From positions 2,356,001 through 2,420,000 of the forward strand of contig NC_014962.1 in NCBI RefSeq assembly GCF_000186345.1: a stretch of DNA of 64,000 nt. Direction: 5' to 3'. Position 1 is the stretch's first letter, and every line of letters starts with the position of its first letter. Positions 46,940-60,588 of this stretch are shown piece by piece. This DNA is from Isosphaera pallida ATCC 43644 (GTDB lineage Bacteria; Planctomycetota; Planctomycetia; Isosphaerales; Isosphaeraceae). Made by a program: the position numbers and the translations under genes. The notes below the pieces were generated by a model. That model saw nothing but the letters and a program-made list of their open reading frames with translations, was not told where the DNA came from and searched no databases.

Positions 46940-47972
46940 TCGGCGCGGCTGTCGGACCACCATGTTGGCGGGTGAGGTGGAGGTGGTGAATCACCCCCCC
47001 CTCCATCCTCCATGATGGTCCACAAAATCGGGGACGAACACGAGCGCGAGATTCCTCGTGATCCCGTTCCCGGTGGTGGAAAGGTTCGTCGAGTCGCCAC
47101 GAACCCGAACAACTCCGTTTCCGATCCAACGACTCGACTTCCTCCCTGGACCCACCCGCCTCCACTCGACGTTACGTTGGTACCCAGAGCGTCGCCAAAA
47201 CAACGCTACCTTGGCTGGTCGGATTAGACTAAAGGGAATCGGTCCACGTCGGCGTGACTCGAACCCCCCGACCCTTCGGTAGGGTGCCCCAAGCCACATG
47301 GCTCGGGTTTGTCTCGTCGCGTAGGATAGCGTGGGATGCCAGGCAACGTCGTCCACCGCAGGGCACCGCCCTCGTTACTCCAGGACCATCTCCTCCCAAA
47401 CCACTCTCCTCGGCGTTAGCGCGTTTCCGATTCCGGCGCGGGTCCTGCCGGACGGCTGACCCAACCAAGCGCTGAACCTGGTCTCACGAGGGATGATTCC
47501 AGTCCATTCCCGCGCCTGCGTCCCCACACCATCGTACGATTCGGTCCCAGGACGCGACGCGACGCCGCGAACGACCCCATCCCGCCGGTTCAGCCGAACT
47601 CACTGGATTTGTTTCGCCGTTTGCTTGAAACTTCTTATGACGTGCCAACCCGCTCATACCCTCGTTTTTGCATGTTCACACGGTTTCCCCTCCGTGTTCG
47701 CGTCGTGGTGGGCGGCACGGATCCCACGTTGGGTTAGGGTTCGTATGACTCCTAGGTGCATGGCGGAGTCGTTTTGATTTGTTGGATTCGCTTTGGACGG
47801 TTGGTCACGCGATGACGATCCGATCCCACCGGGTTCCGGAAGACGAACTGGCACATTGGCGGGCATGATCCCGTCGGGGTCAGTTGGCCAAGTCCCTTTG
47901 TTGACCCTCCGTCACGCTTTCCGCTTCCTCCTCTCCCCCGACCCGATCCTTCGGAGCTTCGGCGGCTACGGT
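46940..47972 (+). other. Intergenic region of about 1 kb before the SNF2 gene
   Basis: No protein gene with family character is seen. A T-loop-like string (GGGTTCGAGTC on the minus strand, near 47255-47270) is present, but no cloverleaf can be built around it. A weak promoter-like pair, TTTCGC (47612-47617) and TATGAC (47636-47641) with an 18-base spacer, points toward the SNF2 gene. The size of the gap leaves room for an unrecognised non-coding RNA. Confidence 0.35.
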
Positions 47973-53603
<5,631 letters not shown>

Positions 53604-56556: not shown

Positions 56557-59500
56557 TCAACGGTCGGCTTGGTCCTCGGCATCGGCGCGGGGACGAGGAT
56601 CACCCAACGCGCGTTTGAGGAAGTCACGCGACAGTTTAACCGCGTGAGCTCCAAATCCGCCATGTCCGGCGGTCGGATAAATCATGAACTCGAACTCCAG
56701 ATTGGCGCGCTGCAGCGCGTGCGCCAGTTTGAAGGCGTTTTGCACTGGCACGTTGAAATCCCGCCCACCGTGGACGATCAGCAGCTTCCCCTTGAGTTTG
56801 GTGGCAGCTTCGACCACCGAAGTCTCCTGATAACCCTTGGGATTCTCCTTGGGTGTGAGCATATACCGTTCAGTGTAAATGGTGTCGTAATCGCGCCAAT
56901 CGGTCACAGCGGCGTCGGCGACGCCGGCGGCGAACTTGTCGGAGTGGGTTAAGGCGAAGGCCGCCATGAAGCCGCCGTAGCTGGCTCCGACGATACCGAC
57001 GCGGGAGGTGTCGCAGTAAGGACGCTCGTTCTTGAGCCACTCCAGCGCCGTTTCGAGGTCGTGAAGTTCCGTCACTCCCAGACGCTTGTAAGCCAACCAG
57101 GCCGATTTGGCAGAGATGTCGGAGGCCGAGCGGGGATCGACCCGGAAAACGATGTACCCCTGCGCGTTCAGCGCCTGGTCGCGCACCCGTCCTCCCTTCC
57201 AGGAGTCAGAGACCGCGGGAAAACGCGGGCCGCCGTATACGGAGAGGTACACCGGATACACCATCGACTCATCCAGATCGGCAGGCGTGATAATCTCGGC
57301 ATAAATTGTGTCGCCATCCGCCGTGGGAATCGCCACCAATTCCACCTTGGAACCGCCGGGATTGGCGGAGTCAGAACTGGTACTCGTGTCGGTGTTGATG
57401 GTGCGAATCGCCAGGCCATCCTCGACCGACCGCAGGGTGATCGTGGTTGGGGTGGTATGGGTCGAGACTCGATCCAAAAACAGCGGACCCTCGGGCGCGA
57501 GGGAGACCAGGTGGACGCCGGGCCCGGGAGTGAGTCGTTTGAGGTTGGAGCCGTCCATCCGAGTGGAGTAAAGCGCCATGCCGACCGGTTCGTCCTTGCG
57601 GGACGTGAACAAAATCCGGTCGTTCTCCTCATCGACCCTGAGCAGGCGGTGAATCGCCCAATCGCCCCGGGTCACCTGTCCCAACAACGCGCCGTCGCGG
57701 GAGTAGCGGTAGAGATGGCGGTAGCCGTCCCGTTCGGAGAGGAACAGGAACGAGCCGTCCTTCAGGTGAATCGGAGCTTCCCAGGTTTCGACCCACGCGC
57801 CGGTGGTCTCGCGGAACAGCTTGCGGGCCTCGCCTTTGAGGTTGATCGCGTACACGTCGAGCCAGGTTTGATTCCGATCAAGAACATAGGCATAGACTTC
57901 CTGGCCGTCGGGACGCCAGTAGGCGCGAACGATGAGGTGGGAGCCGTCGGGGTTGTCGGGCGGGTCGAAGAAGACGGGGGACGCCTGTTGTCCGTCCTCC
58001 TGGTCGATCGCCACGATCCCGAGTTTCACCGGCGGGTTGGGTTCGCCGACGCGGGGATAGGCCGGGCGGGGCGAGGGGGTGAAGCTGATGGCGTCGAGTA
58101 CCGGCAGGGGCGGAACGGGGGTCTCGTCGAACCGGATGAAGGCCAAATGCCGCGAGTCGGGCGACCACCAGAACGCCTTACTGTCGCGGTCGAACACCTC
58201 CTCCCAGTACACGTAGCTGGCATCGCCGTTGCGAATCGGACCGCCGCCGTCATGGGTCAGTTGTCGGGTTTCCTTGGTTGTCGTGTGGGTGATTGTCAGG
58301 TTCAGGTTGCTGACCTGGACGCGCCATTGGCCGTCGGGCGAGACATAGCCGGGGACGGCGACGCCGCCAAGTTCGCCTCTTAGACGGTTGGCCACCGGCA
58401 ACTCGGGCAACGGGCCGTCCAGCGGGGTGATCTCGCCGGTGCGGGCGTGGACCTTGTTGCGACGATCGGGAGTCAGCCAGTGGTCAGCATCAAGCCAAGG
58501 GCCGGGGTCTGGCTCCCGACGAACGGCTTTGGGTGGGTCCTGCTCTTGAAGTGTCGAGACATTGGGGCCCGACCTAGGCGAGGCCAATTCCGCGGGTGGC
58601 GTGACGGCGATTGGTGTGATGGGCAGAGGACGGGTCGGCGCGGTGGCCAGTCGCGCTACGGGGTGGTCGCCACCGACTTCCAACAGGTCGTCGAAGGCGT
58701 TCCAGGCGGTCAAGCCGTCGTCGGAGCGGGGTTCCAGCAACAAAACGGCAAGGGTTCCCAGCGGCTGGGTGGCCGGAACGACCCGCCAACCAGCGGGAAC
58801 CACCCGGCTCAGTGTGCGCCGGGTGGTTCCGACGGTGAGCAGGCGATGGTTTTGGAAGGTGCGTTCAGAGTGTTCCAGAGCGTCGATCCGATCGACTTCG
58901 AGTTCCAGTTCGATCGGTTCACTCAGGGTCTGGACCGTGAGGCCGTGACGTTCGAGGGTCGCCACCGCTTGCGACGCCTCGGGGGGCAGCAGGTAGGCGA
59001 AGGGCCGGGGCACGGTCTCGTCGGCGACGATGTCATTCATCCAGGAGACCGTGTAATCTTTGGGCGCGTTTTGATCGGAATGCCGCTCATACCCTTGTAC
59101 GACCAGTGGTTGACTCACCGGTTTGATTCGTTCGCGGATAGCGATAGGGTCACCCACCTGTCCTTGGCTTTCTCGGCGGGCCTGTTGGCAAAGGGCGTGG
59201 ACCTGGTCGCGGTCGCGGGCCACGCGCTCCAAAATAGCGCGGACGTATTCACGGGTGGCGATCACGCGATCCTTGTAAGGTGCGTGGCTGTACGCTTCGG
59301 TAAGGACCGACACGCAGCCCCGCAGCCCTTGATAGTTGGTGCCGTAGCGGGCGTGACCGGGGTAGGACAACCAGCGCTCCCCAGCGCGGTCGAAGTAACC
59401 GTAGAAGGTCGAGGTGAAGCCAGTGGCGCGCTCCAGGTCGGCCCCGGCTCCCGGCAACAGGTCGTTACGGAGATAGTCCCGCAGAGCCGGCGAGGCGGCG

Positions 59501-60195
59501 GGGTGTTTGGAGCCGTCGTAGGTCATGGTGTGCCGAATCGCCGACCCGTTGGTGGTGTGGGTCTCAATCACCACATGGGGTTGACACCGATTCATCAGAT
59601 CGACCAAGCCGCGCAACTCGGGGGTTTCGAGCTTCATCCAGTCGCGGTTGAGGTCGAGCCGTTGGGCGTTTTCGCGGGTGCCGACGCGCGCGGGGCCGTG
59701 TTGGCCGGGGCGGTTTTGCTCGATTGGACCAAAGGCGTCGTTGCCGTCGGGGTTGAGGATCGGTGCCACGATGAACACCAGATCGTTCAACAGGGGCGAA
59801 TGGGTTTCAGCGAGGTCGCGGACCAGGGCAGGCAGCGCCTCCTTGCCACAGACTTCGCCCGCGTGGATCGCGCCGGTGGCCAATACCACGAGTTTGCCCG
59901 AATTGGCAACGGCTTCCGGGGTGTCGATGGGCGGCTGGGCCAAGATCAGGTGGGGCAGGGGGCGGCCCTGAAACGATCGGCCGTAGTCACCCAGACGAAT
60001 CACGTCGGGATGCCGTTGAGCCAGCTGCCGCAAATGATCGACGACCTGCTCATACGTAGCAGTCTCTTGATAGTTGGATCGTTCGGCAATGGTGGGAAGT
60101 GAGGCCGGCGCGTCGGCGGAGGCGGCGAACGGCCACCCGGCCAGCGAGAGGACAAACGTGAGGGCGATGAACTGCCACGCGCGGAGGGGAACCAT
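56557..60195 (-). CDS. Fused M14 zinc carboxypeptidase and S9 dipeptidyl peptidase IV, secreted
   Basis: ATG 60195 is chosen because a signal peptide follows directly (MVPLRAWQFIALTFVLSLAG); the frame extends to 60525. The 1,212-residue protein joins two peptidases. The first (~45-350) is an M14 carboxypeptidase: zinc ligands in GAIHAGEV (HxxE) and ETHTTNG (His), NPDGNDAF, LDLNRDW, and a likely catalytic Glu in LTEAYSH. The second (~565-1200) is an S9B DPP-IV type: beta-propeller with FWWSPDSRHLAFIRFDE, then an alpha/beta hydrolase with GASYGGFMAA (nucleophile Ser), GGRDFNVP (Asp) and AGHGGFG (His). Both active sites look intact, so one exported polypeptide could trim proteins or peptides from both ends. 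The two halves are normally separate proteins. Confidence 0.88.
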   Translation of the reverse strand: MVPLRAWQFIALTFVLSLAGWPFAASADAPASLPTIAERSNYQETATYEQVVDHLRQLAQRHPDVIRLGDYGRSFQGRPLPHLILAQPPIDTPEAVANSGKLVVLATGAIHAGEVCGKEALPALVRDLAETHSPLLNDLVFIVAPILNPDGNDAFGPIEQNRPGQHGPARVGTRENAQRLDLNRDWMKLETPELRGLVDLMNRCQPHVVIETHTTNGSAIRHTMTYDGSKHPAASPALRDYLRNDLLPGAGADLERATGFTSTFYGYFDRAGERWLSYPGHARYGTNYQGLRGCVSVLTEAYSHAPYKDRVIATREYVRAILERVARDRDQVHALCQQARRESQGQVGDPIAIRERIKPVSQPLVVQGYERHSDQNAPKDYTVSWMNDIVADETVPRPFAYLLPPEASQAVATLERHGLTVQTLSEPIELELEVDRIDALEHSERTFQNHRLLTVGTTRRTLSRVVPAGWRVVPATQPLGTLAVLLLEPRSDDGLTAWNAFDDLLEVGGDHPVARLATAPTRPLPITPIAVTPPAELASPRSGPNVSTLQEQDPPKAVRREPDPGPWLDADHWLTPDRRNKVHARTGEITPLDGPLPELPVANRLRGELGGVAVPGYVSPDGQWRVQVSNLNLTITHTTTKETRQLTHDGGGPIRNGDASYVYWEEVFDRDSKAFWWSPDSRHLAFIRFDETPVPPLPVLDAISFTPSPRPAYPRVGEPNPPVKLGIVAIDQEDGQQASPVFFDPPDNPDGSHLIVRAYWRPDGQEVYAYVLDRNQTWLDVYAINLKGEARKLFRETTGAWVETWEAPIHLKDGSFLFLSERDGYRHLYRYSRDGALLGQVTRGDWAIHRLLRVDEENDRILFTSRKDEPVGMALYSTRMDGSNLKRLTPGPGVHLVSLAPEGPLFLDRVSTHTTPTTITLRSVEDGLAIRTINTDTSTSSDSANPGGSKVELVAIPTADGDTIYAEIITPADLDESMVYPVYLSVYGGPRFPAVSDSWKGGRVRDQALNAQGYIVFRVDPRSASDISAKSAWLAYKRLGVTELHDLETALEWLKNERPYCDTSRVGIVGASYGGFMAAFALTHSDKFAAGVADAAVTDWRDYDTIYTERYMLTPKENPKGYQETSVVEAATKLKGKLLIVHGGRDFNVPVQNAFKLAHALQRANLEFEFMIYPTAGHGGFGAHAVKLSRDFLKRALGDPRPRADAEDQADR

Positions 60196-60492: not shown

Positions 60493-60588
60493 TCGGCGGC
60501 GGCGGTGGCGGTGGCAATGTCGCAAACCACGATGCCGTGGAGATCGAGAACTTCAACGTCTCCGACCGCATGATTGAGTCTGAATCCG

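Follow-up and report, generated by a model that had tools for sequence, protein, structure and literature searches.

A conserved fusion of M14 carboxypeptidase-type and DPP IV-type S9 peptidase domains in Isosphaera pallida and other planctomycetes

The window analysed here, a 64,000-nucleotide stretch of the Isosphaera pallida ATCC 43644 genome (contig NC_014962.1, positions 2,356,001 to 2,420,000), carries a minus-strand open reading frame (60195-56557) encoding, from an ATG at 60195 and in one frame, a 1,212 aa protein. This protein joins an M14 metallocarboxypeptidase-type catalytic domain, a beta-rich middle domain (here called M14ct) and an S9 peptidase of the DPP IV type (Table 1). The same frame is open from a TTG at 60525 down to the stop at 56557. 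By eye, the N-terminus has the look of a Sec-type signal peptide, including an AxA-type site. An earlier note on this DNA had described one exported-type polypeptide of ~1,210 residues with both catalytic sites complete, and the description stands, with all the residues of Table 1 in place. Isosphaera pallida IS1B is described as a hot-spring planctomycete (PMC3072084).

The M14 half is recognized by Pfam as Peptidase_M14 (PF00246) at residues 53-189, with an E-value of 2.7e-18 and 67 bits against a curated cut-off of 21.6. An AlphaFold2 (AF2) model of M14 plus M14ct (516 residues) reached a predicted local distance difference test score (pLDDT) of 93.4. Fold matches for this model, which span mainly model residues 1-301, identify its first 300 residues with carboxypeptidases (Z 26.9-29.1 over the 50 matches listed), carboxypeptidase B 7eqx_C among them (VIA Z 29.1, root-mean-square deviation 2.4, 250 residues aligned). 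Site residues were assigned by alignment with relatives together with the carboxypeptidase A motif pattern. The loss of a zinc ligand feared in the earlier note did not materialize, H111, E114 and H213 all being present on alignment, and the complete HEH..E set occurs in 67 of the 68 fused M14 rows. Residues N183 (67/68 fused rows, 54/54 single M14 rows) and R184 (68/68 and 54/54) form an N-R pair of the kind that, in carboxypeptidases, holds the C-terminal carboxylate of the substrate. The protein resembles carboxypeptidases A, B and T in fold over ~250 residues, in its HxxE...H and N-R motifs and in its Glu base, but shares just 16-22% identity with them and has a beta-rich C-terminal domain of its own as well as the S9 fusion. 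Pfam returned no match between residues 190 and 616, the region that includes M14ct.

In the S9 half, Pfam identifies DPPIV_N at residues 617-916 (E 1.4e-64, 218.5 bits, cut-off 22) and Peptidase_S9 at residues 1007-1196 (E 9.2e-44, 149.9 bits, cut-off 22.6); the NCBIfam Dpp5 model NF053518 scores 81.6 bits, below its equivalog cut-off of 900. A structure prediction, which the earlier note had asked for, gave the M14 part a carboxypeptidase fold and placed the whole model nearest to bacterial DPP IV: the 1,183-residue mature protein was modelled with a pLDDT of 86.9 and a predicted template modelling score (pTM) of 0.76, and its top Foldseek rows are bacterial DPP IV enzymes at 30-33% identity. 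To place the site residues, the protein was aligned with its relatives and with DPP IV enzymes of solved structure. The catalytic triad, the double-Glu motif and the oxyanion Tyr (Y987) are complete in all 68 fused S9 rows, and N1148 is also present in the I. pallida protein. Propeller and alpha/beta-hydrolase domains are alike in the I. pallida protein and in the bacterial S9B enzymes of Pseudoxanthomonas mexicana (PmDAP IV, 5yp1) and Stenotrophomonas maltophilia (2ecf), with triad and double Glu aligning, but the alignments of 5yp1 and 2ecf have no M14 part, which the I. pallida fusion carries. In the P. mexicana study, the double-Glu motif of DPP IV is reported to grip the substrate N-terminus (PMC5807507). 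The 39 S9 rows labelled single in Table 1 include one (L236; L and G numbers denote our loci and genomes) that is L179 again, shortened and mislabelled as single.

Table 1. Features of the M14-S9 fusion gene of I. pallida, in window coordinates.
Feature	Position	Strand	Basis
Whole coding sequence, 1,212 aa, M14 - M14ct - S9 (DPP IV-type)	56557..60195	-	Open reading frame, Pfam, genome search
Signal-peptide-like N-terminus, residues 1-28	60112..60195	-	Translation; boundary by eye
M14 carboxypeptidase-type catalytic domain, about residues 34-330	59206..60096	-	Pfam, AF2 model, fold match
H111, zinc ligand (position in HxxE)	59863..59865	-	H in 67/68 fused, 54/54 single rows
E114, zinc ligand	59854..59856	-	Kept in 67/68 fused, 54/54 single rows
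H213, third zinc ligand	59557..59559	-	Kept in 67/68 fused, 54/54 single rows
E300, general base	59296..59298	-	Kept in 68/68 fused, 54/54 single rows
Core of beta-rich middle domain M14ct, residues 398-516; traces remain on S9 after loss of the M14 catalytic domain	58648..59004	-	Relatives' sequences
Site of ~49 blade-1/2 residues missing relative to relatives, residues 598-618	58342..58404	-	Alignment of 53 fusions
DPP IV-type beta-propeller, about residues 567-950 (approximate ends)	57346..58497	-	Pfam DPPIV_N; Foldseek top match 2ecf, E 1.0e-55
E665-E666, double-Glu motif	58198..58203	-	68/68 fused rows; aligns with EE of 5yp1
Alpha/beta-hydrolase catalytic domain of S9, about residues 961-1203	56587..57315	-	Pfam Peptidase_S9
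S1072, nucleophile	56980..56982	-	68/68 fused, 39/39 rows labelled single
D1146, triad	56758..56760	-	68/68 fused; 38/39 labelled single, one gap
H1178, triad	56662..56664	-	68/68 fused; 38/39 labelled single, one gap

The fusion recurs well beyond this genome. In the Isosphaeraceae it is found in 24 of 45 genomes, I. pallida included, and 19 further proteins of the family are complete one-frame fusions, 40.7-45.4% identical over their full length, from regions chosen because both halves had already been seen in one long frame. Others are cut but span the junction (G015, G020, G022) or are cut by a contig end (G003), while three genomes carry a single M14 gene (G014, G043, G044) and two carry S9 pieces at contig edges (G016, G018). 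Among 80 named loci, the best 80 of 486 relatives ranked by likeness to the fused M14 and therefore leaning towards fusions, 54 are fused and 26 have an M14 with no S9 in the stretch. The fused count includes L109:908-4972, which comes from a metagenome-assembled genome and has in-frame stops that break the fusion. Planctomycete single M14 proteins of this clade share both M14 and M14ct with the fusions but have no S9 in frame. Seven long frames (L180, L181, L182, L184, L185, L186, L187) were considered as carrying extra N-terminal partners of M14 and rejected: by eye, their N-terminal parts look like non-coding run-on before a signal-like start.

Wider samples put bounds on this recurrence. 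In the class, strong matches were obtained in 108 of 397 genomes and sorted by match coordinates, a single match being one that runs from model position <=40 to >=1080. Fusions account for 71 of these genomes: 59 single matches, four cut by contig ends and eight in pieces, of which one (G000) was already known and seven were confirmed by reading, including the one class fusion with a dead M14 (L263). The remaining matches comprise six with M14ct traces and S9 without an M14 catalytic domain, one S9-M14ct-S9 arrangement, 20 genomes with S9 alone (four of them read: L277-L279, L282), seven with M14 alone and three with S9 pieces at contig edges (G016, G018, G709). Across the phylum, 107 matching rows fell in 102 of 392 genomes. 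The 40 rows read, those with the longest frames and best scores (frames in the remaining 65 are of <=854 residues), yielded 10 fused, 29 single and one with M14 and S9 as neighbours (L209); with G000 and G021 added, genomes with a fusion come to only 12 of 392, and in one, G279 (L183), the M14 half is dead. The earlier note had called the combination unusual, which is too strong given the recurrence among the best named loci and in the class, although the phylum-wide count is low. Judged from these sequences, the fusion is an old planctomycete architecture rather than an oddity. Two fusions bear a Verrucomicrobia label (L164, L139), each found in 1 of 96 sampled genomes of that phylum, its own (the other 95 were common to both samples); wrong binning of L139 is possible, since it adjoins a Phycisphaerales row in the M14 tree. 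Matches also occur in 67 plasmid records; none reaches 80% query coverage, and in the 20 rows listed only the S9 half is matched.

To place fused and single forms, we used an M14 tree of 122 rows (68 fused, 54 single, identical rows dropped) and an S9 tree of 107 rows, 105 of them different, both quick trees computed without bootstraps, the S9 tree carrying a long-branch warning that includes the I. pallida fusion. A single 91-row set (support 98) of the M14 tree takes in all 68 fused rows with 23 singles interspersed; the other 31 singles fall outside. A wider S9 tree of 70 rows contains a 62-row set (support 99) made up of all 44 fused rows used together with cut-down, dead-M14 and matching single S9 proteins, and fused rows are among the deepest branches of this set, though at a support of 93. 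Most simply, the fusion arose once, long ago, and was later split or lost repeatedly. Weighing against this, the single S9 rows L233-L235 and L237-L239 do not group with the main fused S9 set in the 107-row tree, whereas the single M14 proteins from those genomes do group with fused M14 rows, and several separate fusions are possible. In L209:4313-8347 (G232), M14 and S9 are neighbouring genes with a common orientation, and in neither tree does this lineage belong to a fused set.

Relatives in which the M14 part is dead or missing had escaped the earlier note. The fused protein L183:4307-7840 (G279) has R/D/R at the zinc positions, and L263:1534-5562 (G791), on another branch of the S9 tree, has H/D/A there, A-A for the N-R pair and V for the base E; the S9 set is intact in both. 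At six further loci (L268-L273) no frame of the stretch encodes an M14 catalytic domain, yet the proteins keep the whole S9 set and M14ct matches that range from weak to clear (best stretch 20.5 to 122.9 bits). In L268-L271 a signal-like start runs directly into M14ct, from the equivalent of residue 398, and L272 and L273 have extra residues before it; on the wider S9 tree these six proteins need at least four changes. A 3,678-base contig, L267:1-3678 (G731), carries a single frame, truncated at either end, that reads S9-M14ct-S9; the first S9 has its triad but E-R in place of E-E, and the second is truncated by the contig end. Because M14 is dead or lost in these relatives while S9 and traces of M14ct stay, S9 with M14ct would form a stable core, and the M14 catalytic domain appears to be an accessory lost by several lineages. 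As a separate observation, L119, L128, L157, L268 and L269 have another S9 gene directly upstream on the same strand, which in L119, L128, L157 and L268 matches Pfam Peptidase_S9 without DPPIV_N; some of the relatives may thus have paired peptidase genes.

The I. pallida genome itself (5,529,304 bases, two contigs) contains 10 matches to the fusion protein, of which only the protein itself has both halves; M14 matches number five in all, and there are further S9 matches besides. The fusion gene is flanked upstream by a same-strand gene for a SecD-SecF protein and downstream by a convergent gene for a calcineurin-like phosphoesterase. Elsewhere in the window lies a plus-strand frame of 1,936 aa (47793-53603); by eye, its N-terminal part has a long stretch of low complexity, and the frame also shows SNF2-type helicase motifs and a zinc finger pattern of SWIM-like type.

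Taken together, the paired complete sites and folds lead us to favour, with somewhat better than even confidence, a predicted exported bifunctional exopeptidase. The protein would cross the cytoplasmic membrane via Sec. Going by its fold and complete site, the M14 domain would bind zinc and take residues off the C-terminus of peptides. By analogy with the family, the propeller would hold the free N-terminus through the double-Glu motif, while the S9 triad would remove N-terminal dipeptides with Pro or Ala in second position. Both halves together would then trim peptides at both ends for uptake, although the further notion that both ends of one molecule are trimmed in a single visit is perhaps wrong. 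M14ct, which tends to be retained along with S9, may act as a brace for the propeller.

Several observations weigh against this reading. No member of the fusion family has a known activity. Sixteen of the 45 Isosphaeraceae genomes have no M14 match among the matches listed, and among 20 genomes with a single M14, an S9 of the matching clade occurs as a separate gene in six, a fusion is also present in one (G230) and 13 show neither. A further concern is the I. pallida propeller, whose shortening by ~49 residues at blade 1/2 had also been missed earlier: W567 to S619 spans 52 residues, against 98-120 (median 101) in 52 other fusions, so that this region is much shorter than in the protein's own relatives. 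In P. mexicana DPP IV, Arg106 of the blade-1/2 loop is reported to bind the P2 carbonyl of the substrate, and the R106A variant retains ~14% activity (PMC5807507). Sequence comparison did not single out an equivalent of Arg106 in the I. pallida copy, and the relatives may or may not carry one. With ~49 residues absent where bacterial DPP IV has its substrate-binding Arg, the dipeptidyl specificity of the I. pallida protein is less certain. The copy is also divergent, being changed at 16 of 174 near-invariant columns and gapped at two more, the second most of 53 rows (median three departures), and its end branch is long in both trees (0.68 for M14, 0.93 for S9). Its reading frame is nonetheless open throughout, and the catalytic residues of Table 1 are in place. 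A domain swap was considered because the I. pallida S9 adjoined Gemmataceae in one quick tree (support 92); constraining it with the Isosphaeraceae gave a better likelihood (approximately unbiased test, p-AU 0.955, 42 rows), and we therefore claim no swap.

Among other explanations, the one that survives best holds that the protein is essentially a DPP IV-type peptidase in which M14 now contributes little catalysis and acts instead as an arm for structure or for capturing substrate. The S9 site intact in every fused row, the dead M14 domains of L183 and L263 and the six proteins without an M14 catalytic domain would all fit. However, a purely structural arm has no need of zinc ligands and a base, yet the full set is present in 67 of the 68 fused rows and in all 54 single M14 rows, and we regard this explanation as unlikely. 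Somewhat less likely again is the converse, that the dipeptidyl function of the I. pallida S9 is lost or altered, leaving a protein that is mainly a carboxypeptidase. Here the missing blade-1/2 residues near the substrate-binding Arg region would count in its favour, as would changes at near-invariant positions such as F1147, which adjoins D1146 and is Asp in relatives, but the protein retains its triad, its double Glu, Tyr987 and Asn1148, and none of the fused rows has lost its S9 site. M14 is a functionally mixed family, and in an exported-looking protein such a domain might act on cell-wall or side-chain amide bonds rather than ordinary peptides, the pair serving envelope turnover; the conserved N-R pair argues against this, as do the nearest folds, which are those of carboxypeptidases, though a fold does not show the substrate, and we consider it improbable. 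That a sequencing frameshift or misassembly joined two genes, as the earlier note had feared, has nothing in its favour and can be rejected with near certainty, given the same one-frame fusion in many independent genomes, the 19 Isosphaeraceae proteins included, and an even GC content at third codon positions (GC3), which stays at 0.62-0.84 in 13 of 13 blocks along the gene with no break at the junction.

Extending the bifunctional exopeptidase reading, we put forward, tentatively and with far less confidence than the reading itself, an ancient planctomycete two-ended exopeptidase in which M14ct is a working part of the propeller, as a brace or as a gate to the propeller cavity, and M14 can be killed, removed or swapped with the M14ct-S9 core still functioning. 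The I. pallida copy would then have traded its blade-1/2 substrate loop for a contact with the M14 arm. That M14 may be swappable is suggested by one contig (L267), where a second S9 stands in the place of M14.

Carboxypeptidases and dipeptidyl peptidases are usually separate proteins. A search of the open-access literature, which did not extend to subscription journals or domain databases, found no paper on the M14-S9 combination or its function, and the main text of a comparison of four Isosphaeraceae genomes (PMC5352709) never mentions peptidase, protease, proteolytic, dipeptidyl or carboxypeptidase. Split, dead-site and cut-down forms, which occur naturally in the same phylum as the conserved fusion, would offer with it a way to ask whether joining the two enzymes speeds peptide scavenging, and what a DPP IV gains from carrying a non-catalytic domain.

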